Positions 7,383 through 25,761 of a stretch of DNA of 64,000 nucleotides are shown here, one piece after another (the stretch's first letter is position 1; each line of letters opens with the position of its first letter). Under the pieces are notes generated by a model. The model was given only the letters and a program-made list of their open reading frames with translations, had not been told where the DNA came from and did no database searches. A program made the translations under genes and the position numbers. Location: the NCBI GenBank assembly GCA_004299485.1, contig SCQP01000002.1:124001-188000 (forward strand), written 5' to 3'. This DNA is from Acidobacteriota bacterium (GTDB taxonomy: Bacteria; Acidobacteriota; Terriglobia; Terriglobales; SCQP01).

Positions 7383-7880
7383 GTGAAACCCGCCACGCTC
7401 GAACCCAAGCCCGTCCGCGCCTCGCAGGCCGAAATGACGGAGATCGTGTTGCCGAACGACGCCAACATCGTCGGCAATATTCTCGGCGGCCGAGTGATGC
7501 ATTTGGTGGATTTGTGCTGCGCCATCGCGGCGTCACGCCACGCCGGCAGCATTTGTGTGACGGCGTCCATCGATCAGATGGATTTCCGCTACCCCATCCA
7601 CATTGGCGAGCTGGTCATCGTCAAAGCCAGCGTGAACCGGGCGTTTCATACCTCGATGGAGATCGGGGCCAAGGTGTTTGCGGAGTCGCTGCTGAGCGGA
7701 CGGCGCCGTCATACCAGCTCGGCCTATCTGACGTTTGTCGCGGTTGATGAGCACGGCGACCGCATTGCCGTGCCGCCGGTGTTGCCGGAAACCGAGGAAG
7801 AGAAGCGGCGTTACGAAAAAGCTGCCGTGCGCCGCGAATACCGCCTCAGCCAGCGCCCGCGCCCCATACATCACGAGTAG
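7383..7880 (+). CDS. acyl-CoA thioesterase, hotdog fold (YciA/BFIT-like)
   Basis: 165-residue single-hotdog thioesterase that hydrolyses acyl-CoA to free fatty acid and CoA. The motif NDANIVGNILGGRVMHLVD near residues 25-43 is the conserved active-site region of this family, with the Asn/Asp residues that position water. The C-terminus is a charged helix (EEEKRRYEKAAVRREYR). The start is GTG 7383, one base after the previous stop; a downstream ATG at 7434 is a less likely alternative. Substrate chain length cannot be told from sequence. Confidence 0.85.
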   Translation: MKPATLEPKPVRASQAEMTEIVLPNDANIVGNILGGRVMHLVDLCCAIAASRHAGSICVTASIDQMDFRYPIHIGELVIVKASVNRAFHTSMEIGAKVFAESLLSGRRRHTSSAYLTFVAVDEHGDRIAVPPVLPETEEEKRRYEKAAVRREYRLSQRPRPIHHE

Positions 7881-7911
7881 CGGCTGGTAACGGCGCTAAA
7901 GTAGAAACAAG

Positions 7912-8628
7912 ATGTCGACGGCAGAAGCGACGCCGGTTCCACACGAACGCGCGCCCGAAGAGGGGACGCCGCAGATTCTGCGGAACATTATTGCCAGTGT
8001 GGCCTGGAATGCGATTGTACCGGTGCTGCTGTATCAGGGCGCCAAGATGTACCTGCACGCCTCGGAATTTGAGGCGCTAGTGATCGCGACGCTGTTTCCG
8101 GTGGCCGAAAGCGCCTGGGGGCTGGCGCACGAGCGTGACATGGACCCGGTTGCCGGCGTAGTGCTGTTCGGCATTATCGTCGACCTGCTGGCGCTGACGC
8201 TGGGCGGAAGCCCGAAGCTGCTGCTGATCCGGGAATCGTTTGCTACCGGCGCGCTGGGCGTTGGCTGCTTCGTATCGCTGGTGTTGCCGCGGCCGCTGAT
8301 GTTCTACTTCGGACGGTACTTTTTCTGCGGTCAAAACGCACAGAAGCGGGCGTATTACGACCAGAGCTGGTCGCTGCCGGAGGTGCGGCACGGCAACCGG
8401 CTGATTACTTCGGTTTGGGGCATTGTGTTTACGGGTGAGCTGGTGATCCGGGTGCTGCTGGTCTTTACGCTTTCGGCGGCGGCGGTGCTGGTGCTGTCAC
8501 CGCTGATTCTGGGTGTGCTCACGGTTTCAACTATCGTCTGGACTCTCGCCTATGCCGGCCGGTTGCGCAAGCGCGTGTTGCCAGTGCTCGTAGCGATGGC
8601 CGCTGAAGCGGCCGGTACTGCGAGCTAA
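7912..8628 (+). CDS. VC0807-like integral membrane protein
   Basis: 238 residues with about six hydrophobic segments after a hydrophilic N-terminus. The pattern NIIASVAWNAIVPVLLYQ near the start, the central MDPVAGVVLFGIIVDLL, and a late GNRLITSVWGIVFTGE are typical of the VC0807 family, which is related in topology to intracellular septation protein A. No transport substrate or catalytic site is recognisable. It is convergent with mnmA; the two genes overlap by four bases at their 3' ends. Confidence 0.65.
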   Translation: MSTAEATPVPHERAPEEGTPQILRNIIASVAWNAIVPVLLYQGAKMYLHASEFEALVIATLFPVAESAWGLAHERDMDPVAGVVLFGIIVDLLALTLGGSPKLLLIRESFATGALGVGCFVSLVLPRPLMFYFGRYFFCGQNAQKRAYYDQSWSLPEVRHGNRLITSVWGIVFTGELVIRVLLVFTLSAAAVLVLSPLILGVLTVSTIVWTLAYAGRLRKRVLPVLVAMAAEAAGTAS

Positions 8629-9743
8629 TCAATCCAGGCGCCGCCGAGGACCTTGTCGCCGGCGTAGAGGACGACGCTCTGGCCGGGGGTGATGGCGCGC
8701 TGGGGTTCGTCGAACTCGACCGTGAGGCGAGCGCCGGGGCGGGGTTCGGCCCAGGCAGCGGCGGGCGTGTGGCGATGGCGGATACGGGCGGTGACGCGAA
8801 CGGGGCCGCTCGGAGCGTCGCCCGAAATCCAATTGCAGCGGCTGGCTTCCAGATGGTGCGAGCGCAGTTCGGCGTCGCTGCCGACGGTGACACGCTGCGC
8901 TGCGGCATCGACCTGCAGAACGTACAGCGGCGACCCCGTCGCTACGCCCAGGCCCTTGCGCTGGCCGACGGTGAAGTGCTCGACGCCCGAGTGATGGCCG
9001 AGGACGTGGCCGCTGGTGGTGACCAGCTCGCCTTCACGCTCAGGAGCAGTTTCGCCTTGCTCGGCAGCGTAGGCGTCGATGAAAGCGGCATAGTTGTTGC
9101 CGGGGACGAAGCAGATTTCGTTGCTGTCGGGCTTTTCGGCCACGCTCAGGCCGAATTCTGCGGCCGTGGCACGGACCTCGGGCTTGTGCATTGCGCCCAA
9201 TGGGAAGCGGGCGGCGGCAAGCTGCTCCTGTGTCAGGCCCCAGAGGAAAAAGGTCTGATCTTTGGCTTCATCGATTGCGCGCAGGAGCTCGTAGGCGCCG
9301 GCATCGGGGTTGAACTGAACGCGGGCGTAATGGCCCGTGGCGACGGTGTCGGCGCCGATCTGGCGGGCGGTGGCCAAGAGCTGATGGAACTTTACCGCCG
9401 TATTGCAATGGCTGCAGGGTACGGGCGTGCGGCCAGCGCGATACTCGGCGACGAAGTTGCGGATGACATCGCGCTCGAACTGCTCCTCGAAGTTGACGAC
9501 GTAATACGGAATGCCAAGCTGCTCGGCGACGCGACGGGCGTCGTGCACATCGTCAAGCGAGCAGCAGCGGCCGCGAGTGCTGGGCGTCATGCCGGGCGCG
9601 CCCGCCAGGCGGCGCTGATTCCAAAGTTGCATGGTCAGGCCGACGATGGGCTCGGCTTGCGCGTGCAGCAGGGCGGCAACGGTGGAGCTGTCCACGCCCC
9701 CGGACATTGCTACGGCAATCATGCCGTGTGCTACGGCAATCAT
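8625..9743 (-). CDS. mnmA: tRNA-specific 2-thiouridylase MnmA
   Basis: Activates U34 of Lys, Glu and Gln tRNAs with ATP and inserts sulfur to make 2-thiouridine. The PP-loop SGGVDSS is at residues 14-20, the catalytic Cys is C110 in VPCSHCN, and the persulfide Cys is C211 in NEICFVPG; TGHYA and a C-terminal beta-barrel region complete the family pattern. Two start codons are possible, 9741-9743 and 9720-9722, because the first 21 bases are nearly duplicated; the second gives the standard MIAVAMSGG N-terminus. It overlaps the upstream cysteine desulfurase by four bases, which fits sulfur handover from that enzyme. Confidence 0.95.
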   Translation of the reverse strand: MIAVAHGMIAVAMSGGVDSSTVAALLHAQAEPIVGLTMQLWNQRRLAGAPGMTPSTRGRCCSLDDVHDARRVAEQLGIPYYVVNFEEQFERDVIRNFVAEYRAGRTPVPCSHCNTAVKFHQLLATARQIGADTVATGHYARVQFNPDAGAYELLRAIDEAKDQTFFLWGLTQEQLAAARFPLGAMHKPEVRATAAEFGLSVAEKPDSNEICFVPGNNYAAFIDAYAAEQGETAPEREGELVTTSGHVLGHHSGVEHFTVGQRKGLGVATGSPLYVLQVDAAAQRVTVGSDAELRSHHLEASRCNWISGDAPSGPVRVTARIRHRHTPAAAWAEPRPGARLTVEFDEPQRAITPGQSVVLYAGDKVLGGAWID

Positions 9744-10912
9744 GCGGCGCCTACCGCCAACTTGCGCTGCTTCTCTATGAGTGCAGGCAAAATCTCAAGT
9801 AACGCTTCCACTTCCTGCGAGGTGTTCTGCGAGGCAAAGCTGAAGCGCAGGCAGGCGCGGGCGCGCGAGCGCGGGAAGCCCATGGCGAGCAGGACGTGCG
9901 AGGGCTCGATCGACCCGGACGAACAGGCCGCGCCGGTGGAGGCGCAGAAGCCGTGCAGGTCCAGGCCGATGACCAAGGCCTCGCCTTCGATACCGTCGAA
10001 GTAGATATCGCTGGTGTTGGGCACGCGGGGCGCGTCTGCGCCAGCGACGCCGGAGCGGGGAACTGTGGCCAGCACGGTGGCTTCCAGGCGGTCGCGCAGG
10101 CGGGCATAGTGCGCAGCGCGCTCGTCAAGATGCTCACGCGCCAGGCGGGCGGCGGTGCCGAGGCCGAGAATGCCGGGCAGGTTTTCCGTGCCCGCGCGGC
10201 GGTCGCGCTCGTGATGGCCGCCGAAAAGCTGCGGCCGCAGGCGGGCGCCACGGCGGACGTAGAGAGTGCCAATGCCCGCGGGGCCGTGAATCTTATGGCC
10301 GCTTAGGCTGAGGGCGGTGCAGTTGAGCGTGCGCACATCGACGGGGATGCGGCCCACGGCCTGGATGGCATCGATGTGGAAGGCCACCTTGGCCTGGGCA
10401 GCGATGGAGCTGATCTCTGCAACCGGCTGAATCACGCCGGTTTCGTTGTTGGCCATCATGACCGAGATCAGGGCGGTGTCCGTGCGAATCGCTTCCGCGG
10501 CGGCCTGAGCGCTGATGCGGCCCTGCAGGTCAGGGCGCAGCCAGGTGACAGGATAGCCGGAACGCTCCAAATCCTCGAAAACGTTCAATACCGCGTGGTG
10601 CTCGACGCGCGTGGTGATCAGGTGCGGCAGCGGGGCCTGCGGGTGAGCTTCCTGCCAGGCGCCGATGAGGCCGCGAATGGCGAGATTATCGCTCTCGGTG
10701 CCGCCGCTGGTGAAGACAACACTGCTGACGGGCGCATTGATAAGCGCGGCGACTTCGGCGCGCGCCTGCTCCATGGCGGCCTTGGCCGCCTGGCCGCGCT
10801 GATGGATGGAGCTGGGGTTGCCGCAGGCGCCATTGAGGGCGGGCAGCATGGCCTCCAGGACCTCGGGCAGGACCGGGGTGTTGGCGTTGTTGTCGAAATA
10901 CGCCCGCAGCAT
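9740..10912 (-). CDS. cysteine desulfurase (NifS/IscS family)
   Basis: PLP enzyme that removes sulfur from cysteine and carries it as a persulfide for tRNA thiolation and Fe-S assembly. From ATG 10910-10912 the product has 390 residues: AYFDNNANTP at the N-terminus, PLP lysine K207 in SGHKIHGP, and persulfide Cys C330 in AACSSGS. The open frame continues upstream into the VWFA gene, but that extension is out of family and rejected. Its overlap with mnmA makes it the likely sulfur donor for MnmA. Confidence 0.93.
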   Translation of the reverse strand: MLRAYFDNNANTPVLPEVLEAMLPALNGACGNPSSIHQRGQAAKAAMEQARAEVAALINAPVSSVVFTSGGTESDNLAIRGLIGAWQEAHPQAPLPHLITTRVEHHAVLNVFEDLERSGYPVTWLRPDLQGRISAQAAAEAIRTDTALISVMMANNETGVIQPVAEISSIAAQAKVAFHIDAIQAVGRIPVDVRTLNCTALSLSGHKIHGPAGIGTLYVRRGARLRPQLFGGHHERDRRAGTENLPGILGLGTAARLAREHLDERAAHYARLRDRLEATVLATVPRSGVAGADAPRVPNTSDIYFDGIEGEALVIGLDLHGFCASTGAACSSGSIEPSHVLLAMGFPRSRARACLRFSFASQNTSQEVEALLEILPALIEKQRKLAVGAA

Positions 10913-14997: not shown

Positions 14998-15431
14998 CTG
15001 CCGGAATGCCCGCACGCGAGGCCGCCTTGCAGATGCTGTATGCGCTCGATCTGGATGGCGGCCGCCAGTCCGCGCGCGAAGTGGAGCACTGGTATCAGCA
15101 GGCGCATCCGCTGCCACCGGCCGTAGCCGCGCGGGCGCGGGCGCTGGTCGCGGCGGTGGAGGCACAGCGCAGCGAAATTGAGCGCCGCATCGAAAAGCAT
15201 GCGATTGGCTGGCGGCTGGAGCGGATGAGCGTGGTCGACCGCTGCGTGCTGAAGCTGGCGACGGCAGAAATCCTGCTGGCACCGGAGGCACCGCGGGCGG
15301 CGATTCAGGCGGCGATGAAGCTGGCGCAAAAATTCTCGCAGCCGGAAGCGGTCGCGTTTATTCAGGGTCTGCTGGAGGCAATTGCCCGCGAGTTGGCATC
15401 CCAGACGGAGGCAGCACCGCATGCCGGATAG
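14994..15431 (+). CDS. nusB: transcription antitermination factor NusB
   Basis: 145-residue all-helical RNA-binding protein that joins NusE on boxA RNA to allow antitermination of rRNA operons. Recognisable are AREAALQMLYALD at the N-terminus and the conserved C-terminal VVDRCVLKLATAEILL and AIQAAMKLAQKFS segments. Start is GTG 14994, overlapping osmC by four bases; the 3' end overlaps the SDR gene by 11 bases. Confidence 0.92.
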   Translation: MTAGMPAREAALQMLYALDLDGGRQSAREVEHWYQQAHPLPPAVAARARALVAAVEAQRSEIERRIEKHAIGWRLERMSVVDRCVLKLATAEILLAPEAPRAAIQAAMKLAQKFSQPEAVAFIQGLLEAIARELASQTEAAPHAG

Positions 15432-16491
15432 AAAGGCGACAACGATCGGGAAGGTCCTCCTGGGACTGGGGGGCGTTGGCCTAGCCGGGGCCACGGTAGG
15501 TGCGGCCGGATTGGCGTGGGGATGGCAGCGCTGGCAAGAATCGCGCCGGCCGGACTGGAGAGGGCGTGTGGTGCTGATCAGCGGCGGCTCGCGCGGACTG
15601 GGCTACGCCATCGCGCGCGAGTTTTTGGCCGGTGGAGCGAAGGTGGCCATTTGCGCGCGCGATCCGGATGAGCTGGCGAGGGCACAGAACAAACTGGCGG
15701 GCCAGGCGCAGCAGGCGGATGCGGTGTTTCACTACGCCTGCAATTTGCGTGAACCCGGCGCGGCGGCCATTGTGGTGGCGGCGGTACGGGAACATTGGGG
15801 CCAGATCGACGTGCTGGTGCATAACGCCGGCGTCATGCAACTTGGGCCGTGGGACCAGATGACGGAGGCGGATTTTGCCGAAGCCATGGACATTCACTTC
15901 TGGGCGGCATTGCGGCTGGCGCGCGCCGTGCTGCCGGAAATGATTGCGCGCGGCAACGGCCGCATCGTGAATATCAGCTCCATCGGCGGACTGGTTGCGG
16001 TGCCGCATATGCTGCCCTATACGGCCAGCAAATTCGCGCTGGTGGGACTATCGCAAGGCTTGGCGAGCGAGGTGCGGCGGCATGGCGTGCGGGTGACGTG
16101 CGTGTGCCCATTTTTGACGCGCACGGGCTCGCAGGAACGGGTAACGGTGCGCGGCCGGCACGATCAGGAATACGCCTGGTTTGCGACATCGGGTAGCATG
16201 CCCGGCCTCAGCCAAAGCGCGGCGCATGTGGCGCGCACGATTGTACGGGTCACCGCGCGCGGACCCGCGCAGGTGACGCTGGCGCTACCGGGAAAATTAG
16301 CGGCGCTGGCACATGGGATCGCACCGTCAACAGTCACCACGCTCATGGCACAGGCCGACCGCATGCTACCGCACCCACCCGCCCATACAGACACGGAAGT
16401 CCGCTCCGGGCGTGAGAGCTACAACCCCTGGACCGAGCGCGTGGTTAAGCCGTTGGTGCAGCAAGCGGGCAGCAAACTCAATCAGGCCTGA
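15421..16491 (+). CDS. membrane-anchored short-chain dehydrogenase/reductase
   Basis: 356-residue NAD(P)-dependent oxidoreductase. An N-terminal hydrophobic segment (residues 10-34) probably anchors it to the membrane. The Rossmann motif is GGSRGLG (55-61), NAG follows in VLVHNAGVM, and the catalytic pair is Y200 and K204 in YTASK, with Ser in VNISS. The C-terminal 90 residues form a family-specific extension. I chose ATG 15421, which overlaps nusB, because the longer frame has no SDR sequence before it. Substrate not identifiable. Confidence 0.85.
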   Translation: MPDRKATTIGKVLLGLGGVGLAGATVGAAGLAWGWQRWQESRRPDWRGRVVLISGGSRGLGYAIAREFLAGGAKVAICARDPDELARAQNKLAGQAQQADAVFHYACNLREPGAAAIVVAAVREHWGQIDVLVHNAGVMQLGPWDQMTEADFAEAMDIHFWAALRLARAVLPEMIARGNGRIVNISSIGGLVAVPHMLPYTASKFALVGLSQGLASEVRRHGVRVTCVCPFLTRTGSQERVTVRGRHDQEYAWFATSGSMPGLSQSAAHVARTIVRVTARGPAQVTLALPGKLAALAHGIAPSTVTTLMAQADRMLPHPPAHTDTEVRSGRESYNPWTERVVKPLVQQAGSKLNQA

Positions 16492-16766
16492 CAGCCTCCG
16501 GCGATGGAGGGGAGAATCAACACTTCATCTTTGGCGGTGAACTGGTAGTTGTTGCCGCCCAGGAAACGGATGTCTTCATCGTTGACGTAAACGTTGAAAA
16601 AGCGGCGCGGGCGGCCGTCGGGCTCGCACAGCCGATCTTTCAAATCCGGAAAACGCGTGGTGAGTTCGGCAAGCAGGGCGGGCAGCGTGGCGGCTTCGCA
16701 GGCAACGCTGTCGGCGCCGTCGGTGAACTTCTGCAACGGAGTGGGAATTTTAACCTGGCAAGACAT
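16482..16766 (-). CDS. MoaD/ThiS-family ubiquitin-like sulfur carrier with C-terminal tail
   Basis: 94-residue beta-grasp protein of the MoaD/ThiS/CysO type. Such proteins are thiocarboxylated on a C-terminal Gly-Gly and hand sulfur to a partner. Here the sequence ends SIAGGCQA: three residues follow the Gly-Gly, so the carrier would need trimming, as known for tailed carriers (CysO/HcyS-type with JAMM peptidases), before activation. A good ribosome site (AGGAAA) precedes ATG. It begins 12 bases after the threonine-synthase-like gene and so lies under the same SAM riboswitch. The 3' end overlaps the converging SDR gene by 10 bases. No adenylating (ThiF/MoeB) enzyme or peptidase gene is in the window. 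Confidence 0.88.
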   Translation of the reverse strand: MSCQVKIPTPLQKFTDGADSVACEAATLPALLAELTTRFPDLKDRLCEPDGRPRRFFNVYVNDEDIRFLGGNNYQFTAKDEVLILPSIAGGCQA

Positions 16767-16778
16767 GAAGATTTCCTT

Positions 16779-18056
16779 TTAGGCGGCGGTAGGTGCAAGT
16801 GCGGCGGGCTGCGCCGGTGGCAGCGGAGCAGCGAGATAGGCTTCGAGGTTGCTGAGCTTGGGAGCCAGTACAGGAATGGGCGCCTGCACGGAGTTGATGG
16901 CGTCGAGCGTTTTCAAGCCGTTGCCGGTGATGACCAGAACGAGCGGGCGATCGGGGTCGACGCGCTTCTGCGCCACCAGCTTTTGGGCTACGGCGACAGT
17001 GACGCCCGCCGCGGTTTCGCCGAATATGCCTTCGGTACGGGCAAGAAGCTGCATGCCGGCCACGATTTCGGCGTCGGTGGCGTCTTCCGCCCAGCCGCCG
17101 GTCTGGCGGATGGTGCGCGCCGCGTAGAAACCATCGGCAGGGCTGCCAATGGCGAGCGAGCGGGCGATGGTGTTGGGACGCTGGGGTTCGATTTCATCGC
17201 GTCCGGCTTTGACCGCCTGACTGATGGGTGAGCAGCCGGTGGCCTGAGCGCCGCAAATGCGCGCGCCCTCGCTGTTGGTGACCCAGCCGAGCTGGCGCAG
17301 TTCGTCAAAGGCCTTGGCGATTTTGCCGATAAGCGAGCCGCCAGCCATAGGACAAACCACAGCGCCGGGCAGACGCCAGCCGAGCTGCTCGGCGATTTCG
17401 TAACCGACCGTTTTCGAGCCCTCGGCGTAGTAGGGGCGCAGGTTGACGTTGACGATGCCCCAAGGATAGCGCTGCGCGATTTCCGAGCAGAGGCGGTTCA
17501 CCTGATCGTAGTTGCCTTTGAACTTGATGAGGCGTGCGCCGTAGACCAGAGTGTTGGCGATTTTGGCTTCTTCGAGATCGGCAGGCGTGAAGATGTAGGC
17601 TTCGAAGCCTGCCGCTGCAGCGCCAGCCGCGAGCGCATTGGCGAGATTGCCGGTGGAGGAACAGGCAACGGTGGAGAAGCCAAACTCGCGCGCTTTGCTC
17701 AGTGCGATGGCCACGACGCGATCCTTGAACGAGAGCGTCGGGAAGTTGACAGCGTCGTTTTTGATATAGAGATCACGCACGCCCAGGGCTTTGGCCAGCG
17801 TAGGAGCGGCGAGCAACGGCGTGCCGCCTACAGGGCGTTCCCGCGCGCTGGGTTCATCGGCTACCGGCAGAAACTCGCGGTAGCGCCAGATCGAGTGGGC
17901 GCGCGTGCGCAAGCGGTCGGGCGAGACGGCGTGGCCGATGCCTTCGAGGTCGTAGCGGACTTCGAGAGGCGCAAAACACTCGTCGCACCCCGCCATCGGT
18001 TGAGGAGGGAACTGCTTGCCGCAATCGCGACACTGTAGGCCAAGCTCGAAACTCAT
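16779..18056 (-). CDS. thrC: threonine synthase-like PLP enzyme with N-terminal zinc ribbon
   Basis: 425-residue fold-type II PLP enzyme. An N-terminal zinc ribbon has C9, C12, C24 and C27; the PLP lysine is K111 in LSFKDR; glycine-rich phosphate loops (SSTGNLANA, MAGGSL) follow. By family it converts O-phosphohomoserine to threonine. I start it at ATG 18054-18056, preceded by GAAAGGAAG, not at the longer upstream frame, which would run through the terminator. It is preceded by a SAM-I riboswitch and followed by a sulfur-carrier gene. Threonine is not an expected target of SAM feedback, so sulfur transfer to phosphohomoserine (making homocysteine) is a real alternative, although unproven. Confidence 0.85.
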   Translation of the reverse strand: MSFELGLQCRDCGKQFPPQPMAGCDECFAPLEVRYDLEGIGHAVSPDRLRTRAHSIWRYREFLPVADEPSARERPVGGTPLLAAPTLAKALGVRDLYIKNDAVNFPTLSFKDRVVAIALSKAREFGFSTVACSSTGNLANALAAGAAAAGFEAYIFTPADLEEAKIANTLVYGARLIKFKGNYDQVNRLCSEIAQRYPWGIVNVNLRPYYAEGSKTVGYEIAEQLGWRLPGAVVCPMAGGSLIGKIAKAFDELRQLGWVTNSEGARICGAQATGCSPISQAVKAGRDEIEPQRPNTIARSLAIGSPADGFYAARTIRQTGGWAEDATDAEIVAGMQLLARTEGIFGETAAGVTVAVAQKLVAQKRVDPDRPLVLVITGNGLKTLDAINSVQAPIPVLAPKLSNLEAYLAAPLPPAQPAALAPTAA

Positions 18057-18080
18057 GCCATGCTTCCTTTCGTGCCCAAT

Positions 18081-18108
18081 AAAAAACCCCTTCCCGCTGG
18101 GGAAGAGG
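18081..18108 (-). terminator. intrinsic terminator of the SAM riboswitch
   Basis: On the minus strand a nine-base stem (CCTCTTCCC with GGGAAGGGG) closes a four-base loop and is followed by six T. It ends about 25 bases before the thrC start. The 5' arm TCTTCCCC can instead pair with GGGGAAAGA at the 3' edge of the aptamer, giving the expected antiterminator when SAM is low. Confidence 0.88.
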
Positions 18109-18144
18109 TAATGGAAGCCGGCTGGCCGTTGGCTGCGCAGCCCC

Positions 18145-18271
18145 ATCTCATCTTTCCCCTTGCCTCCACGCGGGAAGCTCGGGCAGGAATTGGCACCTCG
18201 ACGCTCCGCCTGTACGGAGCCGGTTGCCGTGGCTTCATCGGGCCTGTTCCCTCAGCCACTCTTGATAAGAT
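18145..18271 (-). ncRNA. SAM-I (S-box) riboswitch aptamer
   Basis: The minus strand shows the S-box consensus in order: P1 5' strand ATCTTATC, then AAGAG, GGCTGAGGGA, GGCCCGATGAAGCC, GGCAACC, a variable stem, GGTGCCAATTCC, and the P1 3' strand GATGAGAT, which pairs with ATCTTATC with one G-U. SAM-I aptamers bind S-adenosylmethionine and turn off sulfur and methionine genes. The intrinsic terminator that follows makes this a transcriptional OFF switch for the thrC-like gene and the sulfur carrier. Confidence 0.93.
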
Positions 18272-18346: not shown

Positions 18347-19066
18347 TTGCAAGTCAAAGTTACTGAATCGGAAATCAGATGGGTGGCAGAGGCAACGGAT
18401 ATCCTGGCAAGCGTACTTCAGGCGAAGCCGGAGGCACGAATTGGCTGGCCGACGGGGACCACCCCGCTGCCGTTCTATGCGGAACTACGGCGGCGCGCTG
18501 CCATCGGTAGTCTGGCGGCGCAAGCGTCGCGTGCGGTGATGCTCGACGAGTATCTTGATCCGCCCGAAGCAGCATTTTCCTCCTGGTCTTGGCTTTGGCG
18601 GGAAGTATGGACACCGCTCAGGCTGGGGCGAGAACAAGTGTTGCGGATGCCACACCGTAGTCCGGGGATCGATGCAGCCTGCGGTGAATTCGAGCGCGCG
18701 CTCGCCGAGGGCGGAGGGTGTGATCTGCTGATATTAGGGTTGGGAGCGAATGGGCACGTTGGGTTCAATGAGCCAGGTACGGCGATGGATACGCGGACGC
18801 GTGTGGTGAAGCTGACCGCGGAAACGGCTGACGCCAACGCGGCGTATTGGCGGGGACGGTTTACGCCGGAGTTTGCGGTGACCATGGGGATGGCCACGAT
18901 TTTGGAAGCCCGGCAAATACTCCTTTTGGTGCGCGGCGGAGCGAAAGCGGACGTGTTGCGGCGGATGTTGCACGACCCGGTCAGCTCGGAACTGCCCGCA
19001 ACTTTTTTGCGGGAGCATGAAGGGCTGACGATTTTGGCTGATCCGGAGGCGGCGGCCGAGCTGTGA
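18347..19066 (+). CDS. nagB: glucosamine-6-phosphate deaminase
   Basis: 239-residue enzyme of the NagB/6-phosphogluconolactonase fold that converts glucosamine-6-phosphate to fructose-6-phosphate and ammonia. Landmarks are GWPTGTTPLPFY, MLDEYL (active-site Asp/Glu), LGLGANGHVGFNEPG with the catalytic His, and a VTMGMATIL segment. I prefer TTG 18347 (AAGGGG five bases upstream; product begins MQVKV after the start) over TTG 18299. It overlaps thrB by four bases, an unexpected operon partner. The gene diverges from the riboswitch-controlled operon. Confidence 0.85.
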   Translation: MQVKVTESEIRWVAEATDILASVLQAKPEARIGWPTGTTPLPFYAELRRRAAIGSLAAQASRAVMLDEYLDPPEAAFSSWSWLWREVWTPLRLGREQVLRMPHRSPGIDAACGEFERALAEGGGCDLLILGLGANGHVGFNEPGTAMDTRTRVVKLTAETADANAAYWRGRFTPEFAVTMGMATILEARQILLLVRGGAKADVLRRMLHDPVSSELPATFLREHEGLTILADPEAAAEL

Positions 19067-19980
19067 GCGCTGCCGAAGAAACCCTGTCGCTGGCGCTGCC
19101 GGCGAGTTCGGCCAACCTGGGGCCGGCATTCGATGCCGCGGCGGTCGCGTGGAACTGCAATCTGCGTGTACGGGCGCAGCTCGCTGATACGTTTGCGGTG
19201 CAAGCCACCGGGCGCGAGCGTGAGCTGTGCGGCGAGGTACGCGATCATCTGATTCTGAACGTCTATCGCTCAATCCTGGAGCGCGAGGGTCGCGCCGTGA
19301 GGCCGTTGGCGTTAGAGCTGGACAACGAGATTCCGGTGGGCAAAGGTTGCGGCTCTTCGGCGGCGGCGCGGTTGGCGGGCGTAGCGCTGGCTGTGCACTT
19401 CGGACGGCTGGGCTGGAGTGCGCAGACGATCGCGGAAGAAGCGGCCCGGCTCGAAGGACATGCGGACAACGTTGCCGCGTGCTGGTGGGGGGGATTTGTG
19501 GTGGTGCAAACGCAGCCCAGTGGCCTGCGCTGGCTGCAGGTGAGCCAAGAGAAACGGTGGCCGCTGTTGTTGGTGGTGCCGCGCGAGGCGCTGGCGACCG
19601 AGCGCGCCCGGGCAGTGTTGCCGGAAACGTATCGCCGTGCCGACGCCGTCAGCAACGTGCAAAACGCCATGTTGCTCGCATGCGCCTGGCAACAAGGGCG
19701 TGGAGACTTGCTGACCGCGGCCATGCGCGACCGGATGCACCAACCCTTTCGTGCACCCCTGTGCCCGCTGCTGGACGCGCTTAGTTCGCTCGCGGGGTGC
19801 AACGGGATATTGGGCTGTTGCCTAAGCGGCGCCGGCCCTGCGGTGCTGCTGGTGGTTGCCGATGCGGCTGCTGCGGTTCCGGCGGTGCAGGCCCGGCTAA
19901 GCGAAGTCAGGTTGGAGGCCGAAATACTGGAGGCGGCCGTGGTGACGGAGGGTCCGGGGCAAAAATGGCGGAACGGATGA
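19063..19980 (+). CDS. thrB: homoserine kinase
   Basis: 305-residue GHMP kinase that makes O-phosphohomoserine. The three GHMP motifs are PASSANLGPAFD at the N-terminus, PVGKGCGSSAA (ATP loop, near residue 91) and LSGAGPAVLL near the C-terminus. GTG 19063 overlaps the nagB stop (GTGA), and the 3' end overlaps hom. Its product is the substrate of the ThrC-like enzyme encoded on the opposite strand about 1 kb away. Confidence 0.93.
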   Translation: MSAAEETLSLALPASSANLGPAFDAAAVAWNCNLRVRAQLADTFAVQATGRERELCGEVRDHLILNVYRSILEREGRAVRPLALELDNEIPVGKGCGSSAAARLAGVALAVHFGRLGWSAQTIAEEAARLEGHADNVAACWWGGFVVVQTQPSGLRWLQVSQEKRWPLLLVVPREALATERARAVLPETYRRADAVSNVQNAMLLACAWQQGRGDLLTAAMRDRMHQPFRAPLCPLLDALSSLAGCNGILGCCLSGAGPAVLLVVADAAAAVPAVQARLSEVRLEAEILEAAVVTEGPGQKWRNG

Positions 19981-21266
19981 AAACGGTACGGATAGGGATT
20001 GCCGGATTTGGAACCGTGGGTCACGCGGTAGCAGCGATATTGCAGTCGCACGGGCATGACATTGCGCAGCGGTGCGGAGCGCACGTCAAAGTTAGCGTTG
20101 TCTGCCGGCGCAGCACAATCGCCGCAGCCGAAATCCCCGAAGGAGCGGAAGCCGTTCAGGACTGGCGCCAGGTGGCCGAGAGTCCGAACGTAGATCTGGT
20201 AGTCGAGACCATGGGCGGCACGGGGGCGGCGCGGGAGCTGGCCGTGGCGGCGCTGGAATACGGCAAGCCTTTGATTACGGCGAACAAGAACCTGCTGGCC
20301 GCGCATGGCGAGCAACTGATGCGCTTGGCCAAGCAGCAGAATCTGCCGTTGGGATTTGAAGCTGCCGTGGCGGGAGGCATTCCGGTAATCCGGGCGATTG
20401 CGGAAGGCACGGCGGCCGACCGGTTGCGGGCGGTGTACGGAATTTTGAACGGGACCGCGAACTATATCCTGACGCGCATGGAAGCCGAAGGAGCTGAGTT
20501 CGACGCAGTGCTGCAAGAAGCCCAGCGGCTGGGTTACGCCGAGGCCAATCCGGCGGCCGATGTAGACGGTATCGATGCGCGCGACAAACTCGCGATCCTG
20601 GCGCGACTGGCGTTCGGAGCGCGCGTGCTGCCGACGTCGATCCCGACGAGCGGCATTCGCGGGTTGGGCGCGGTTGACATGACCTATGCGCGGCAGTTGC
20701 GATCGGTGATCCGTTTGGTGGGGGCGGCGGAGTACAGCGAGAGTGGCCTGGCGCTGTCGGTGCGGCCGTGGCTGGTGGATCAGCGCTCGATGCTGGCCAA
20801 AGTGGAAGGCGTGAACAACGCCGTGTTTGTCGAAGGCGAACGGGTCGGGACGCAGATGTTTTACGGGCGCGGCGCGGGGGGTGATGCGACCGCGGTGGCC
20901 GTGCTATCTGACGTGATGGAGATTGCAGGCGATTGGGCCGCAGGGCGCACGTCGGCGAAGTTTGCCGGAGGTTTTCTGCCGACACGGGATCTGCTGCTTT
21001 GCCGCGTGCCTCCCGCTGTGCGCTGGTACTTGCGGCTGGTCATCCGCGACCGGACGGGAGTGTTGGCGCGCGTCGCGGCGATTCTGGCCGAGCACGGCAT
21101 CAACATCGATTTTGTATTGCAGCAGCCGGGCATGAACAAGGAGCGGCTGCCATTCGTGATTACGGTCGAGCCGGTGAGCGAACCTGATCTTATGCGCGCC
21201 GTCGCCGCCATTAACGCTACTGACGCCGTGCTGGAGCCGGTGCTGCCGCTGCGGATGCAAGCGTAA
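19977..21266 (+). CDS. hom: homoserine dehydrogenase with ACT domain
   Basis: 429-residue NAD(P)H-dependent enzyme that reduces aspartate semialdehyde to homoserine. It has the N-terminal Rossmann motif GIAGFGTVGHAV, the TANKNLLA active-site entry, the GILNGTANYILTRM signature, the AEANPAADVDGIDARDKL catalytic region, and a C-terminal ACT regulatory domain (residues about 350-420), the usual site of threonine feedback. ATG 19977 gives a four-base overlap with thrB; ATG 19965 is also possible. Only 11 bases separate its stop from that of the converging phage terminase gene, so this is the left edge of the phage block. Confidence 0.94.
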   Translation: MKTVRIGIAGFGTVGHAVAAILQSHGHDIAQRCGAHVKVSVVCRRSTIAAAEIPEGAEAVQDWRQVAESPNVDLVVETMGGTGAARELAVAALEYGKPLITANKNLLAAHGEQLMRLAKQQNLPLGFEAAVAGGIPVIRAIAEGTAADRLRAVYGILNGTANYILTRMEAEGAEFDAVLQEAQRLGYAEANPAADVDGIDARDKLAILARLAFGARVLPTSIPTSGIRGLGAVDMTYARQLRSVIRLVGAAEYSESGLALSVRPWLVDQRSMLAKVEGVNNAVFVEGERVGTQMFYGRGAGGDATAVAVLSDVMEIAGDWAAGRTSAKFAGGFLPTRDLLLCRVPPAVRWYLRLVIRDRTGVLARVAAILAEHGINIDFVLQQPGMNKERLPFVITVEPVSEPDLMRAVAAINATDAVLEPVLPLRMQA

Positions 21267-21277
21267 GAAGCTTACCG

Positions 21278-22723
21278 CTACAGTTCGCGCACGCGGCGGG
21301 AAGAGAGGTAATTTCCGTTGGAGGCTTGGCGGAGGCGATTTTCGGCGAGGCGGCGCTGAAGGGCGGCAATGGTGGGGTCGCCACTGGTGACCTGGCGCTG
21401 AAGCTGCGTTTCGCGCGGTTCGGCGGCCGGTGCAACGTAGCTGTAGACGCCGTAACGCAGGGCGTCGAGGCAGTCATCGAGCGGATCACCGCTGACTTTG
21501 AGGATGTCGTCGGGGCGGTTGGGATCGTGAATGCGCGAGGGCAGCGCCTCGCGCAACTGGCGGCAGCCGTCGCAGAGCAACAAGCGGCCGCTGTCCAGTT
21601 GTGAGTAGACCAACATAGCGCCGCCGATGCGGTCGTTGGAGGCCGGCGTGAAGCCGATGCCGGCGGCTTGCTGCATCTGGTCTGCCAGGCTGTGGCCGTC
21701 ACCGCGGTCGGCCCAGGCGTCGGGCGAGAGATACCAGGCAACGATGTGACAGCCGTCGCGTTGCCAGCGGGTTTTCAGCGCGCGCGCGAAATCGGCGGCC
21801 TGCTGGTGCTTGGCGGTGTATTCCTCAAGGACATAGGTGGTGCCTTCGGGCGATTTGGTGAACAGATACGCGGCGGCCTGACTGATATTGAAGCCGTAAT
21901 CGGCCGCCACCCAGCGGGGCCACCAGCCCTCGACGGGTGCGATGGCTCGCTTGACGATCATGCGCTCGGGCATCCAGTTGTCGAAGTACTGGCCCTCGTA
22001 GACATCCCAGCAGCCATCGAGCAGCGCCTTGCGGAAGGCACCGGGCAGCGATTCGAGTGAGGCCACGTAGTCGGCGCCGAGGAGGGAATGATCGGTGACG
22101 CGGCCAGGGATGAAGCAGGTGGATTTGCCGATGAGGCGTCCGTCACTCGGCCATGCGGCGTCGTTGTAGGTGCGGTAGGGGACGCGTGAATCCGGGCCGA
22201 TGTGGCAGTGGGTACAGGTCTCGCCGTGAAAAATGGCCTTATGCGTTCCGTGGCCGATGTTGCCGGGATTGCTCGCCAGGCGGACACGCAAGCGCAGGTC
22301 GGCTGAAGTCGAGCGCAGGCGGCTGAGCATGTAGCGGATCGGAAATTCGCTGAAGTGGGTACTTTCGTCAAAGCCGATGAAGCTGTACTCGGCGCCCTGA
22401 TAGCGATAAATGTCTTTGTCGGATTCACAGTAGGCAAACTCGACGGTGGCGCCGGAGGGAAAAGTCCACCGCCGTTTCTGCTCGTTATACACGCCGTCCG
22501 TGGCAGCGTAGAGCTCGCGGCTCCGGCGGATCAGCGACTTTTCGAGCTCCGGGTAGCTGCGCCGGAAGAGAACTGCCCGGAGGCCGGGATGCGTAACCTC
22601 GCGGACGGCATCGACGAGAAGAGTTTCCGACTTCAGTGAGCCGGCTGCTCCGCCGAACAGCAGAATGTCGGCAGCGCAGTCGAGGGCCTCCTGCTGCGCG
22701 CGGCTGCGCGGCTGCCAGTCCAT
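21278..22723 (-). CDS. phage terminase large subunit
   Basis: 481-residue packaging motor. The N-terminal ATPase has a Walker A variant GGAAGSLKS (24-32), with Leu before the Lys, and Walker B YSFIGFDEST with D119/E120. SNPGN follows as motif III. The C-terminal RNase H-like nuclease begins near WVAADYG (D275), with further acidic residues in DPLDDCLDALRYG. It cuts and pumps phage DNA into the prohead through the portal. It is the last gene of the operon, as in T7-like phages; the small subunit is not recognisable among its neighbours. Confidence 0.9.
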   Translation of the reverse strand: MDWQPRSRAQQEALDCAADILLFGGAAGSLKSETLLVDAVREVTHPGLRAVLFRRSYPELEKSLIRRSRELYAATDGVYNEQKRRWTFPSGATVEFAYCESDKDIYRYQGAEYSFIGFDESTHFSEFPIRYMLSRLRSTSADLRLRVRLASNPGNIGHGTHKAIFHGETCTHCHIGPDSRVPYRTYNDAAWPSDGRLIGKSTCFIPGRVTDHSLLGADYVASLESLPGAFRKALLDGCWDVYEGQYFDNWMPERMIVKRAIAPVEGWWPRWVAADYGFNISQAAAYLFTKSPEGTTYVLEEYTAKHQQAADFARALKTRWQRDGCHIVAWYLSPDAWADRGDGHSLADQMQQAAGIGFTPASNDRIGGAMLVYSQLDSGRLLLCDGCRQLREALPSRIHDPNRPDDILKVSGDPLDDCLDALRYGVYSYVAPAAEPRETQLQRQVTSGDPTIAALQRRLAENRLRQASNGNYLSSRRVREL

Positions 22724-22761
22724 CGGCTAGAGAAGTGCGGCGAGCGCCGGGCCATGAGGCA

Positions 22762-23211
22762 TCATGACCGCTTGCGCAGCGCGTGCGGAAAAGCGGCAAA
22801 GCGGTCGGCCGCGATAGGCCGGCGCGGTAACGCGAAGGGATAGGCGCCTACCGGTCCTTGCGGTACGCCGACGTTGTTTGTGGTGCCGGTGGGCGGAGGC
22901 ATGAGCAGGCCGAAAAAGGCAGGATTGCCCAAGTCGACTTCATGGCCGGCCTCGATTTCCCCAGCCATGGGCTGATCGGCGTTAGGCACGCGCGCGGCCG
23001 CATCCACGCCCGCAACTTCTGGTGGCTCAGGTTCACCGCTGGGCGTGAAGCTGGCCGTGCGCGCACGGCGAGCGGCGTCCCAGCCCGGCGAGCCTGGGCC
23101 GCTGTTATCGGGCAGCGCGGCCAGCAACTTCACAGCGAGGGGATGCAGCCAGGGATGGCGTTCGGTGACGATGTCGCGTTTGTCGAGGCCGGTGAGTCGA
23201 GGATCAATCAT
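22762..23211 (-). CDS. phage-block protein, unknown function
   Basis: 149 residues, no match recognised. The N-terminal third is helical (HPWLHPLAVKLLAALPDN); the rest is rich in Pro, Gly and Ala with little predicted order (MPPPTGTTNNVGVPQGPVG). AGGAG lies eight bases upstream of the ATG. Its place just before terminase would suit a small terminase subunit or a virion component, but no HTH motif is visible. Confidence 0.65.
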   Translation of the reverse strand: MIDPRLTGLDKRDIVTERHPWLHPLAVKLLAALPDNSGPGSPGWDAARRARTASFTPSGEPEPPEVAGVDAAARVPNADQPMAGEIEAGHEVDLGNPAFFGLLMPPPTGTTNNVGVPQGPVGAYPFALPRRPIAADRFAAFPHALRKRS

Positions 23212-23222
23212 CGCTTGTTCTC

Positions 23223-23768
23223 CTAAATCTGGAAGCGGCCGCCAAGGCCGCCGCGCAGCACCCGCGACCAGAAGCCAGGATTATCGGCGACTTGGCCCTG
23301 CGTGCCGACAAGACGGCTAACGTTGTCCAGGGCGCCATTGGCGGCGCTGGTGGAGGCGCCATACAGGCGGTCGAGGCCGCCAAGAGCGTTTTGCGTGCCT
23401 TGGATGCGAGCGTTACCAAAACCTTGCGCTAACGATCCCATGGCCTGGGCTTGCTGCTGGCCCTGGCCGCGGGCAAGCTGCTCCTCGGTGGCGTTCATGC
23501 CTGCAGAATTGCCGGTACGGGCTGCCCGGTCACGTTCCCGCGCAGCCGCAGCGCCAAACGCGCCTGCGAGCGAGCCAAGTTCCGCTTGCGTCATCGCTTG
23601 TTTTTCGCCGGTGGTATAGCCAGGGCTGGCAGCCTCGCTCTCATAGCCGCTCAGTGCGGGACCGAAGCTGGCGTTCTGATTCGCCATGCCTTGTTGCGCC
23701 GCCTGGTTGGCGTTGGCGTACGCCTGCTGTTCCTGTTGGTTGTAAATCCGCTTGTCACCACGTGCCAT
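23223..23768 (-). CDS. Gln/Ala/Gly-rich phage structural protein
   Basis: 181 residues, strongly biased to Gln, Ala, Gly and Asn (for example QQEQQAYANANQAAQQGMAN), with predicted amphipathic helices and no membrane segment. Proteins of this composition next to tail and portal genes are often internal virion or ejection proteins in short-tailed phages; that role here is inference. It lies 10 bases downstream of the tail protein gene. Confidence 0.65.
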   Translation of the reverse strand: MARGDKRIYNQQEQQAYANANQAAQQGMANQNASFGPALSGYESEAASPGYTTGEKQAMTQAELGSLAGAFGAAAARERDRAARTGNSAGMNATEEQLARGQGQQQAQAMGSLAQGFGNARIQGTQNALGGLDRLYGASTSAANGALDNVSRLVGTQGQVADNPGFWSRVLRGGLGGRFQI

Positions 23769-23778
23769 GGAGTGCTCC

Positions 23779-25761
23779 TCAGAGTGAATTCGCGCGTAGA
23801 GCCCAGGTCGATTTCATGAACAGATAGATCGACTGAAGCTGCATGGAACCTTGCGAACTGTTCAGACGCAGACTAATGGCTTCGCCTTGGACCAGGGCGA
23901 GCGTCTGGTGGCTTGCGCTCGATACCCGATTGAGCGAAACGCTTCCGATCGACTGCGCGGCGCCGCCGTCGGTGATGGATTCCAGTGAGACGGTCGCGGT
24001 GCCGGTGGCCCGGACCTGTATCAACCCAGCCATTTCAATTCCCTGGCGCTGTCGCCGCAGCAACTCGCTCGCGCTGAACGCGCCCGTCGTCAGTGCCCAA
24101 GCAATCGCCGTGCCGCCGTCTTGGGCGCTATCCGGATCCAGCCGGTAAATCGCCCCATCCGGCTGCGCGCTGGCCACGAGCACCTGTTCGTTGACCTGCC
24201 GCCGGTCTGCCGGAAAGTCACCGAGCGTCACCGGCCGCCGCACGGCTACGGCCTGGCTCGCCGCGATGGTGTCCAGGCTCCAGCGCCGCCCCGGAAAGTA
24301 GTGATAGCGCGCGGTGAAGGCGCTGAACCGCTGGCTCGGCTCCCAGCCATCCATGTAGCTGACCTTGTAGATGGTGTCGCACAGCAGGCTGGTGCCGGTG
24401 GGGCAGCCCACGCGCACGGTCTTGTTGTTGTGGTCAATCGCGCACCAGATCAGCGCCGCCTGCGCCCAGTTGATCGCATCCCACGCCCCCGGCTTCAGGT
24501 GCGACGGCCCCAGCAGCTCCTCGCTGATCCACTGCGGCGCCCCGCCATCGAACAAGTAGGCGCCCGACGGGCACACCATAAACACAAAGCTCGTTCCCAC
24601 CGCCAGCGCCCGCGGCGAGCACGCCCCCACGCTATGGGCGATGTGGGTGATCGACCAGGTGGCCGGATCGCCGTCGTTTGGCGTCACCAGGTAGAGTCCC
24701 CTTTCGAGCGCCACGTAAAGCTGATTGCGGAACTCAAAGCAGGCCGTGACCTTGAGGCCGCTGCCTTCGGCGACCTGAAAGAACCCAGTGTCGCCCAGAT
24801 AGAGGCCCGCATCGCCCGGCTCCGAGCAGTAGACGGTGGACGGTTGCGCCGGATCGCCCCACCACAGCAGCCGCTGCGTGGTCTGGCTGAACAACACGCC
24901 CTGGACGTTCGGCAACTGCATCGCCCGGAACTGGTCGGCGGCGTTGTTGCTGGCCGCCAGGTAGTCATCGTCAAAGTTCACCGTGATTGAAGTGGTGGTG
25001 TTGTCGTCAATGACGGTCACGGTCTCGTTTACCCCGTTCACCGTCGCCGGCGTCTCGATGTAGAAGTACGGCCCCGCGCTCGTCCCTCCGGCCACGGTAA
25101 AGGCCACGACACGCGCCACGCACGACTGCGGTCCAGTCGGCAGACTGCTGATGACCGCCTCTTTGCTGCCCACCGCCGTCCAGTTGAACGGCAGCGAAGG
25201 CTGGGAGAGCGAGCCTTCCCGGTTTTTGAACATCACGACGCCATAGCGCGCGCCCGCGGCGATGTTGCCCGCAGTGGCGCTATCGGCGCCGCTCGCCACC
25301 GTGCCCGGAGCGGCAATCGTCACCGGGTCCAGGTTCGTGCCGTCAAACACCGCCGGCGCCGCCGTGCCCGCCAGGCCGGAGCCAAAGGCCAGGTAGGCCC
25401 GGTTATACGCCGAGGCGCCATTCATCCAGGCGCTGGCCGGCAGCACCACCGGCGAGCCGGGCGCGGCACTCACCAGCCGCCCGCTTCCCGCCGCCGATTC
25501 CACATACAGGTTGCCGTCGGCATCGAACACCAGCGGCTGCTCGGCGCCGTTCAACTGCACGTAGTCCACCAGGCCGCGCACGGCGGCGCCCGAAGGCGTG
25601 GCCATCGCCAGCGTCAGCCCCTCGCGCACCGACACCGCCGATTGCGTATAGCGGACGTTGGTCGCCTCTACCATCAGGTCGCAGTCCAGCATCTCCGCCG
25701 GCCAGTTCGTCACCAGGCCCCCAAAGTGCTCGAGCGGCACCGGTGTATAACTCTGTAGCAT
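23779..25761 (-). CDS. phage tail/hub protein, beta-propeller-like (P22 gp10-type role)
   Basis: 660 residues of mainly beta strand with repeating blade-like units (NQLYVALERGLYLV, SFVFMVCPSGAYLFDG, PQWISEELLG) and no signal peptide. The opening MLQSYTPVPLEHFGGLVTNW with ATNVRYTQSAVSVREG resembles tail needle-platform or stabilisation proteins of short-tailed phages. I infer that it plugs the portal or forms the tail hub. Its start codon lies just after the histidine phosphatase stop, suggesting coupled translation. Confidence 0.65.
   Translation of the reverse strand: MLQSYTPVPLEHFGGLVTNWPAEMLDCDLMVEATNVRYTQSAVSVREGLTLAMATPSGAAVRGLVDYVQLNGAEQPLVFDADGNLYVESAAGSGRLVSAAPGSPVVLPASAWMNGASAYNRAYLAFGSGLAGTAAPAVFDGTNLDPVTIAAPGTVASGADSATAGNIAAGARYGVVMFKNREGSLSQPSLPFNWTAVGSKEAVISSLPTGPQSCVARVVAFTVAGGTSAGPYFYIETPATVNGVNETVTVIDDNTTTSITVNFDDDYLAASNNAADQFRAMQLPNVQGVLFSQTTQRLLWWGDPAQPSTVYCSEPGDAGLYLGDTGFFQVAEGSGLKVTACFEFRNQLYVALERGLYLVTPNDGDPATWSITHIAHSVGACSPRALAVGTSFVFMVCPSGAYLFDGGAPQWISEELLGPSHLKPGAWDAINWAQAALIWCAIDHNNKTVRVGCPTGTSLLCDTIYKVSYMDGWEPSQRFSAFTARYHYFPGRRWSLDTIAASQAVAVRRPVTLGDFPADRRQVNEQVLVASAQPDGAIYRLDPDSAQDGGTAIAWALTTGAFSASELLRRQRQGIEMAGLIQVRATGTATVSLESITDGGAAQSIGSVSLNRVSSASHQTLALVQGEAISLRLNSSQGSMQLQSIYLFMKSTWALRANSL

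Follow-up and report, generated by a model that had tools for sequence, protein, structure and literature searches.

Why should a gene whose product resembles threonine synthase be read from a leader that senses S-adenosylmethionine (SAM), and be followed by a gene for a sulfur carrier protein? The question is raised by a locus in Terriglobales, in a window of 64,000 nucleotides from a soil bacterium of the Acidobacteriota (assembly GCA_004299485.1, contig SCQP01000002.1, positions 124,001 to 188,000), by which we mean the whole stretch analyzed, numbered from its first letter. On its minus strand, a SAM-I riboswitch, a threonine-synthase-like enzyme that we call ThrC2 and a CysO-like carrier follow one another. 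ThrC2 and the carrier probably constitute a SAM-repressed, protein-thiocarboxylate-dependent homocysteine synthase, with O-phosphohomoserine as the probable acceptor.

The SAM-I/ThrC2/Carrier Unit

The SAM-I (S-box) aptamer (18145..18271, minus strand) matched RF00162 at 80.6 bits (cut-off 44.4; E 2.1e-17) with the canonical P1-P4 fold. Its expression platform is an intrinsic terminator hairpin (18086..18109, minus strand), found by a hairpin scan as 10 pairs followed by the T run TTTTTATT, in line with the complete aptamer and terminator announced by the original prediction, which was made from the letters of the window. Folded in silico, the leader adopts P1-P4 plus the terminator, which by itself reaches -16.1 kcal/mol; P1 and the antiterminator compete, and P1 is lost when the 3' arm of the terminator is blocked. 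As modeled, this is the usual SAM OFF-switch architecture, in which the formation of P1 would permit the terminator to form. A covariance-model search found this to be the single SAM-I element of the whole 3.3 Mb genome.

ThrC2 (16779..18056, minus strand; 425 residues) is a threonine-synthase-like fold-type II enzyme dependent on pyridoxal phosphate (PLP), which scored 260.8 bits against TIGR00260 (cut-off 167.1) and 236 bits against PALP. Its N-terminus bears a zinc-ribbon-like motif, CxxC-x11-CxxC (C9, C12, C24 and C27 in the alignment; 17974..18032, minus strand), so that the earlier description of a ThrC-like PLP enzyme with a zinc ribbon was confirmed. The ribbon cysteines are retained in most ThrC2 members and substituted in one (L075). 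A listed open reading frame of 455 residues was rejected as ThrC2, since it begins within the leader and the conserved start lies at 18056.

After a gap of 12 bases comes the carrier (16482..16766, minus strand), a β-grasp protein of 94 residues with a ThiS match (PF02597) of 43.8 bits, the motif PSIAGG and, after its GlyGly, the tail CQA (16485..16493, minus strand). The spacing and the GGCQA ending were thus as originally predicted, but the MoaD/ThiS type was not: the nearest entry in the Protein Data Bank is M. tuberculosis CysO in its complex with CysM (3dwg, E 5.7e-17), a further one being the carrier 4n6e, and the protein is therefore better called CysO-like. The CQA tail would presumably be trimmed before activation of the carrier. 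A convergent SDR gene (15382-16491, stop at 16491) overlaps the last carrier codons by about 10 bases, and the tail sequence may thus be constrained by two genes, those of the carrier and of the SDR protein.

Conservation Across Phyla

Among 41 relatives, exactly one SAM-I was found in 32, each time ahead of a ThrC homologue, and ThrC2 was present in 34, with the carrier adjoining wherever the contig extends far enough. One relative (G040) holds ThrC2 and the carrier without SAM-I, which indicates that the switch can be lost. A wider set of 80 ThrC2 loci was drawn from GTDB genomes by ThrC2 peptides alone, the riboswitch and the carrier having no influence on the choice. It covers about eight phyla altogether (Acidobacteriota, Planctomycetota, Nitrospirota, Nitrospinota, desulfobacterial and deltaproteobacterial lineages, Acidimicrobiia, Verrucomicrobiota and Omnitrophota) and includes the isolates Terriglobus roseus DSM 18391, T. 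albidus DSM 26559, Edaphobacter lichenicola and Gemmata sp. IIL30. A CysO-like carrier lies on the same contig in 73 of the 80 loci, nearly always just downstream, and a SAM-I upstream in 59, three of which have it farther off, before other operon genes; Rfam confirmed the element at 5 of the 12 loci tested outside the order. The association of ThrC-like enzymes, GlyGly carriers and SAM-I switches that had been anticipated for related genomes is thus indeed widespread.

The stretches around these 80 loci also hold genes for a ThiF/MoeB-type E1 (24), a CysM-type synthase (13), a JAMM protein (9), homoserine kinase (9), homoserine dehydrogenase (Hom; 3), canonical ThrC (3) and aspartate-semialdehyde dehydrogenase (Asd; 2), while neither MetX nor MetY was found within them. 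At each of the nine loci that have it, the homoserine kinase gene thrB adjoins ThrC2 or the carrier or lies a short way off; in seven loci from Acidobacteriota it directly follows one or the other, and the three of these that were tested scored 244-260 bits (cut-off 168). In an Acidimicrobiia genome (L137), SAM-I, ThrC2, E1 and Asd are consecutive. Within the window, thrB (19063..19980, plus strand; TIGR00191, 200 bits, cut-off 168) and hom (19968..21266, plus strand; NF004976, 451.6 bits, cut-off 205) are divergent from the unit and are preceded by a short gene of the glucosamine-isomerase/6-phosphogluconolactonase type, as classified by family profile search. The original suggestion that thrB-hom supplies the acceptor gains from the occurrence of homoserine kinase within the ThrC2 operon in several lineages. 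About 10 bases past hom, phage head and packaging genes (21278-25761, minus strand), including a terminase large subunit and a virion structural protein, form a prophage or remnant that abuts the threonine genes.

ThrC2 Versus Threonine Synthase

ThrC2 is one of three ThrC paralogues in its genome, the canonical ThrC (G000:C14:69159-70139, 272 bits) and a PRK08197-type protein on contig C16 being the others; its identity to paralogues of this kind is 32-38%. Neither of these two genes has a SAM-I, and a second, riboswitch-free ThrC is thus present, as the original prediction had it. The possibility that ThrC2 is the sole threonine synthase was rejected: canonical ThrC coexists with it, and at least two ThrC homologues occur in 45 of 48 wide-range genomes. 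In a tree of 78 rows, all 55 ThrC2-type sequences formed one group (support of 100 in the approximate likelihood ratio test SH-aLRT), with the 23 other ThrC-type sequences outside it.

ThrC2 passes the TIGR00260 cut-off, yet the substrate-side motifs STGNT, N-SVNPxR, GNxGN and ATAIRIGNP of characterized enzymes are not found in it. In all ThrC2 sequences NFPTLSFKDR stands for N-PTGSFKDR, STGNL for STGNT, MAGGS for GNAGN, NVNLRPYYAEGSK for N-SVNPxRLEGQK and ARSLAIGNPADG for ATAIRIGNPASW; the replaced motifs are those that face the substrate and the cofactor phosphate in threonine synthase. By contrast, the canonical ThrC of the same genomes retains STGNT, SxNPxR and the IGxP motif in the alignment. 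The contacts of T. thermophilus ThrC with the phosphate of O-phosphohomoserine, which we take to be T88, N154, S155, R160 and N188, served only as a lead. An AlphaFold model of ThrC2 (mean predicted local distance difference test score, pLDDT, of 84) has threonine synthases as its nearest structures (Z 34-40), with 2c2b at the top and the cysteate synthase CapA2 (9k3c) also close; as modeled, this match gives ThrC2 the threonine-synthase fold and cannot settle its substrate or function. The match to TIGR03844 (cysteate synthase) was weak, and that to cysKM reached 38 bits (cut-off 344), so that ThrC2 is not the CysM-type cysteine synthase that partners CysO. Because its substrate-side motifs fail despite the TIGR00260 score, ThrC2 should not, judging from its sequence, be filed as a threonine synthase before it is assayed.

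Carrier Tails and Sulfur-Transfer Machinery

All carriers of the relatives share PSIAGG in the alignment; what follows it varies from 0 to 28 residues, most often one or two. Of the 73 carriers in the wider set, 21 stop exactly at GlyGly, and a single one is fused to an E1. Seven carriers (L117, L128, L129, L133, L135, L160 and L165) extend for 80 residues past GlyGly; the extension is a NIL domain in L117, the sole one tested by Pfam, and most of the seven loci have a JAMM gene close by. Such an extension may serve to sense methionine, or it may be a tail that is cut away. In some Acidobacteriota (L039, L116 and L146), carriers have long cysteine-rich tails past GlyGly, such as CCSYCGQEECLCY.

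The genome of the window contains the machinery that such a carrier would use, on contig C16 (G000, L166; all minus strand), where a CysM-like synthase (9859-10773), a JAMM protein with HSHPDHPARPSQYD (9401-9850), a second CysO-like carrier (9083-9394) and an E1-rhodanese protein (7804-8976) form a cluster. A JAMM protein and a ThiF-type activator, which the original prediction had asked for in the same genome, are thus present. The cluster is unlinked to ThrC2 here, and in one relative (G048, L168) the ThrC2-carrier pair neighbors an E1-JAMM-CysO-CysM cluster. Fusion of the second CysO to an E1-rhodanese-like protein, giving about 490 residues in total, is frequent and occurs in many Acidobacteriota (for example L167:9188-10687, minus strand, and L168:7859-9319, plus strand).

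Classical Homocysteine Genes

Profile searches of the genome of the window, which is 98.8% complete, found neither MetX nor MetA; a weak MetX-like match of 75 bits was rejected as MetX, being interrupted by a stop. The TIGR01392 cut-off (500 bits) proved too strict, as true MetX beside MetY scored 376-397 bits, and NF001209 was therefore used for the count over the phylum. Among 247 acidobacterial genomes, MetX above the cut-off occurred in 2 of 60 with ThrC2 and in 49 of 187 without it (Fisher p 2.5e-5, a test that ignores shared ancestry); it occurred in 3 of 48 ThrC2 genomes across many phyla, and in the order of the window four MetX-MetY genomes have neither ThrC2 nor SAM-I. The cleanest case is a 99% complete relative (G033) with ThrC2 and SAM-I and no MetX or MetA, whose Cys/Met PLP enzymes include a single strong match, a cystathionine γ-lyase. 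The exclusion is not absolute: an absolute rule was rejected on the exceptions just given (2 of 60 and 3 of 48) and on four genomes with MetA-MetY. As the original prediction anticipated, MetX is absent from this genome and rare in others with ThrC2, and MetA is absent from this genome too; the MetA-MetY pairs and two cystathionine γ-synthase-like genes set limits to this picture.

Another 99% complete relative (G034) showed no detectable ThrC2, MetX or MetA and is either an auxotroph or user of yet another route. Two genomes with MetX have SECIS_3 elements (68.9 bits) close to MetX-MetY (L050:4917-4975; L051:4853-4911, minus strand), which hint at a selenoprotein gene.

Proposed Mechanism and Alternative Explanations

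We infer the sulfur donor, the acceptor, the thiocarboxylation, the γ-replacement and the homocysteine product. O-phosphohomoserine is proposed as the acceptor because ThrB and Hom are neighbors. From a mechanistic point of view, a JAMM peptidase would cut any tail off the carrier and so bare its GlyGly, the carrier would be adenylated by a MoeB/MoeZ-type E1, and it would then gain sulfur, as a thiocarboxylate, through a sulfur donor. Hom and ThrB would supply O-phosphohomoserine, which ThrC2 would bind on PLP with elimination of phosphate; the sulfur of the carrier would be added at the γ carbon, instead of water at the β carbon, and hydrolysis would free homocysteine for conversion into methionine and SAM. 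High SAM would in turn fold the aptamer, free the terminator and stop transcription. On balance we lean toward such a route, in which a type II enzyme of the threonine-synthase fold γ-replaces O-phosphohomoserine with a CysO-like carrier thiocarboxylate, under SAM-I control, in about eight phyla. The original interpretation is supported by the second ThrC, the E1, the JAMM protein, the co-occurrences, the rarity of MetX and the homoserine kinase genes in the operons of several lineages.

Several observations weigh against this route. We know of no precedent for γ-replacement by a fold-type II enzyme. Several active-site motifs of ThrC2 depart from threonine synthase, so that phosphate binding must be remodeled or the leaving group differs, and these sequence changes leave room for another leaving group. 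One deeper ThrC2 sub-branch in Acidobacteriota (G053, G090, G154 and G226; L169, L173, L170 and L182, respectively) has no adjacent carrier or SAM-I. The neglect of shared ancestry by the Fisher tests on MetX and ThrC2 counts here too. Moreover, a MetA-MetY pair is found in 4 of the 34 relatives with ThrC2 (G006, G009, G011 and G013), and the genome of the window keeps its two cystathionine γ-synthase/lyase-like enzymes (L046 and L047).

These two enzymes suggest another source of homocysteine, a cystathionine γ-synthase acting on O-phosphohomoserine as in plants, with ThrC2 and the carrier as accessories of sulfur metabolism. We regard this as improbable, since the family assignment of L046 and L047 is ambiguous and under the cut-offs, their homologues also occur in genomes with MetX and so do not track the gap, G033 has a cystathionine γ-lyase only, and in each genome it is ThrC2, and not the γ-synthase-like genes, that the one SAM-I controls. 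It is likewise unlikely that the same carrier system leads ThrC2 to another product, made from O-phosphoserine (cysteine or cysteate-like) or by β-addition to a four-carbon acceptor. The altered active site, the existence of ThrC-like cysteate synthases with the weak TIGR03844 match and the proximity of CapA2, and the use of O-phosphoserine by CysO/CysM would suit such a product, but the ThrB/Hom neighbors and SAM-I control indicate homoserine and methionine, and ThrC2 anti-correlates with MetX. CysM and its own CysO are, moreover, present in this genome and in many ThrC2 operons; with CysM beside ThrC2, cysteine synthesis is already covered, which makes cysteine an unlikely product of ThrC2.

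A second threonine synthase, tied to SAM to balance threonine and methionine, with the carrier as a ubiquitin-like modifier or a bystander, appears highly improbable. ThrC2 does have the fold and a score above the TIGR00260 cut-off, and the top structural neighbor 2c2b recalls the SAM-responsive threonine synthase of plants. However, canonical ThrC coexists with a ThrC2 clade that is separate and altered in its motifs, the carrier is linked to ThrC2 across phyla, with E1 and JAMM, and a SAM OFF switch would divert more homoserine to threonine at low SAM, which is the wrong direction.

Significance and Comparison With Known Systems

A homocysteine pathway remains undiscovered in some bacteria, Acidimicrobium ferrooxidans being named among them (Price et al., 2018; PMC5764234). 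If the proposed synthase is real, methionine synthesis would be accounted for in many lineages without MetX and MetA, possibly in Acidimicrobiia too; many genes annotated as threonine synthase would be homocysteine synthases, methionine auxotrophy would be predicted too often for several phyla, and γ-replacement chemistry would have arisen in a fold-type II enzyme. Since Terriglobus roseus, Edaphobacter lichenicola and Gemmata sp. are in culture, the proposal is within direct experimental reach.

The open-access literature searched, subscription journals lying outside the search, gave no description of the SAM-I/ThrC2/carrier unit, and we rather favor the view that this route to homocysteine is as yet undescribed. 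Neighborhoods of ThiS/MoaD, E1, JAB and cysteine synthase, Solibacter included, were presented by Iyer et al. (2006; PMC1779556, rows 4c-4e) and share these components, carrier included, with the ThrC2 operon set; we came across neither a homologue of threonine synthase nor a SAM riboswitch in their account.

With threonine synthase (TIGR00260/PRK08197), ThrC2 shares the fold, the PLP lysine motif SFKDR, the N-terminal ribbon and a score above the cut-off; it differs by its own clade, changed motifs, SAM riboswitch and carrier, and by its coexistence with canonical ThrC. The ThrC-like cysteate synthases (TIGR03844; CapA2, 9k3c) are likewise relatives of threonine synthase in which sulfur takes the place of water, but their substrates are O-phosphoserine and free sulfite, and they are not known to involve a carrier protein. 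The CysM/CysO/Mec+ system of M. tuberculosis (3dwg) also combines a fold-type II PLP enzyme, a carrier of the CysO subfamily and a phosphorylated amino acid acceptor, as proposed here; however, CysM β-replaces O-phosphoserine, whereas ThrC2 is threonine-synthase-like and its genome has a separate CysM-CysO cluster. The HcyS/HcyF/HcyD/MetY protein-thiocarboxylate methionine pathway of Wolinella succinogenes, reportedly described by Krishnamoorthy and Begley in 2011, a study cited by Price et al. (2018), is similar in its tailed β-grasp carrier (here ending in CQA), its E1, its JAMM protein (here on C16), its PLP enzyme and the delivery of thiocarboxylate sulfur, here proposed, to homocysteine. 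Its partner enzyme is MetY, a fold-type I O-acetylhomoserine sulfhydrylase, whereas the partner here is not MetY but a ThrC-like fold-type II enzyme with O-phosphohomoserine as the probable acceptor, in a unit whose carrier is CysO-like and whose expression is placed under SAM-I control.

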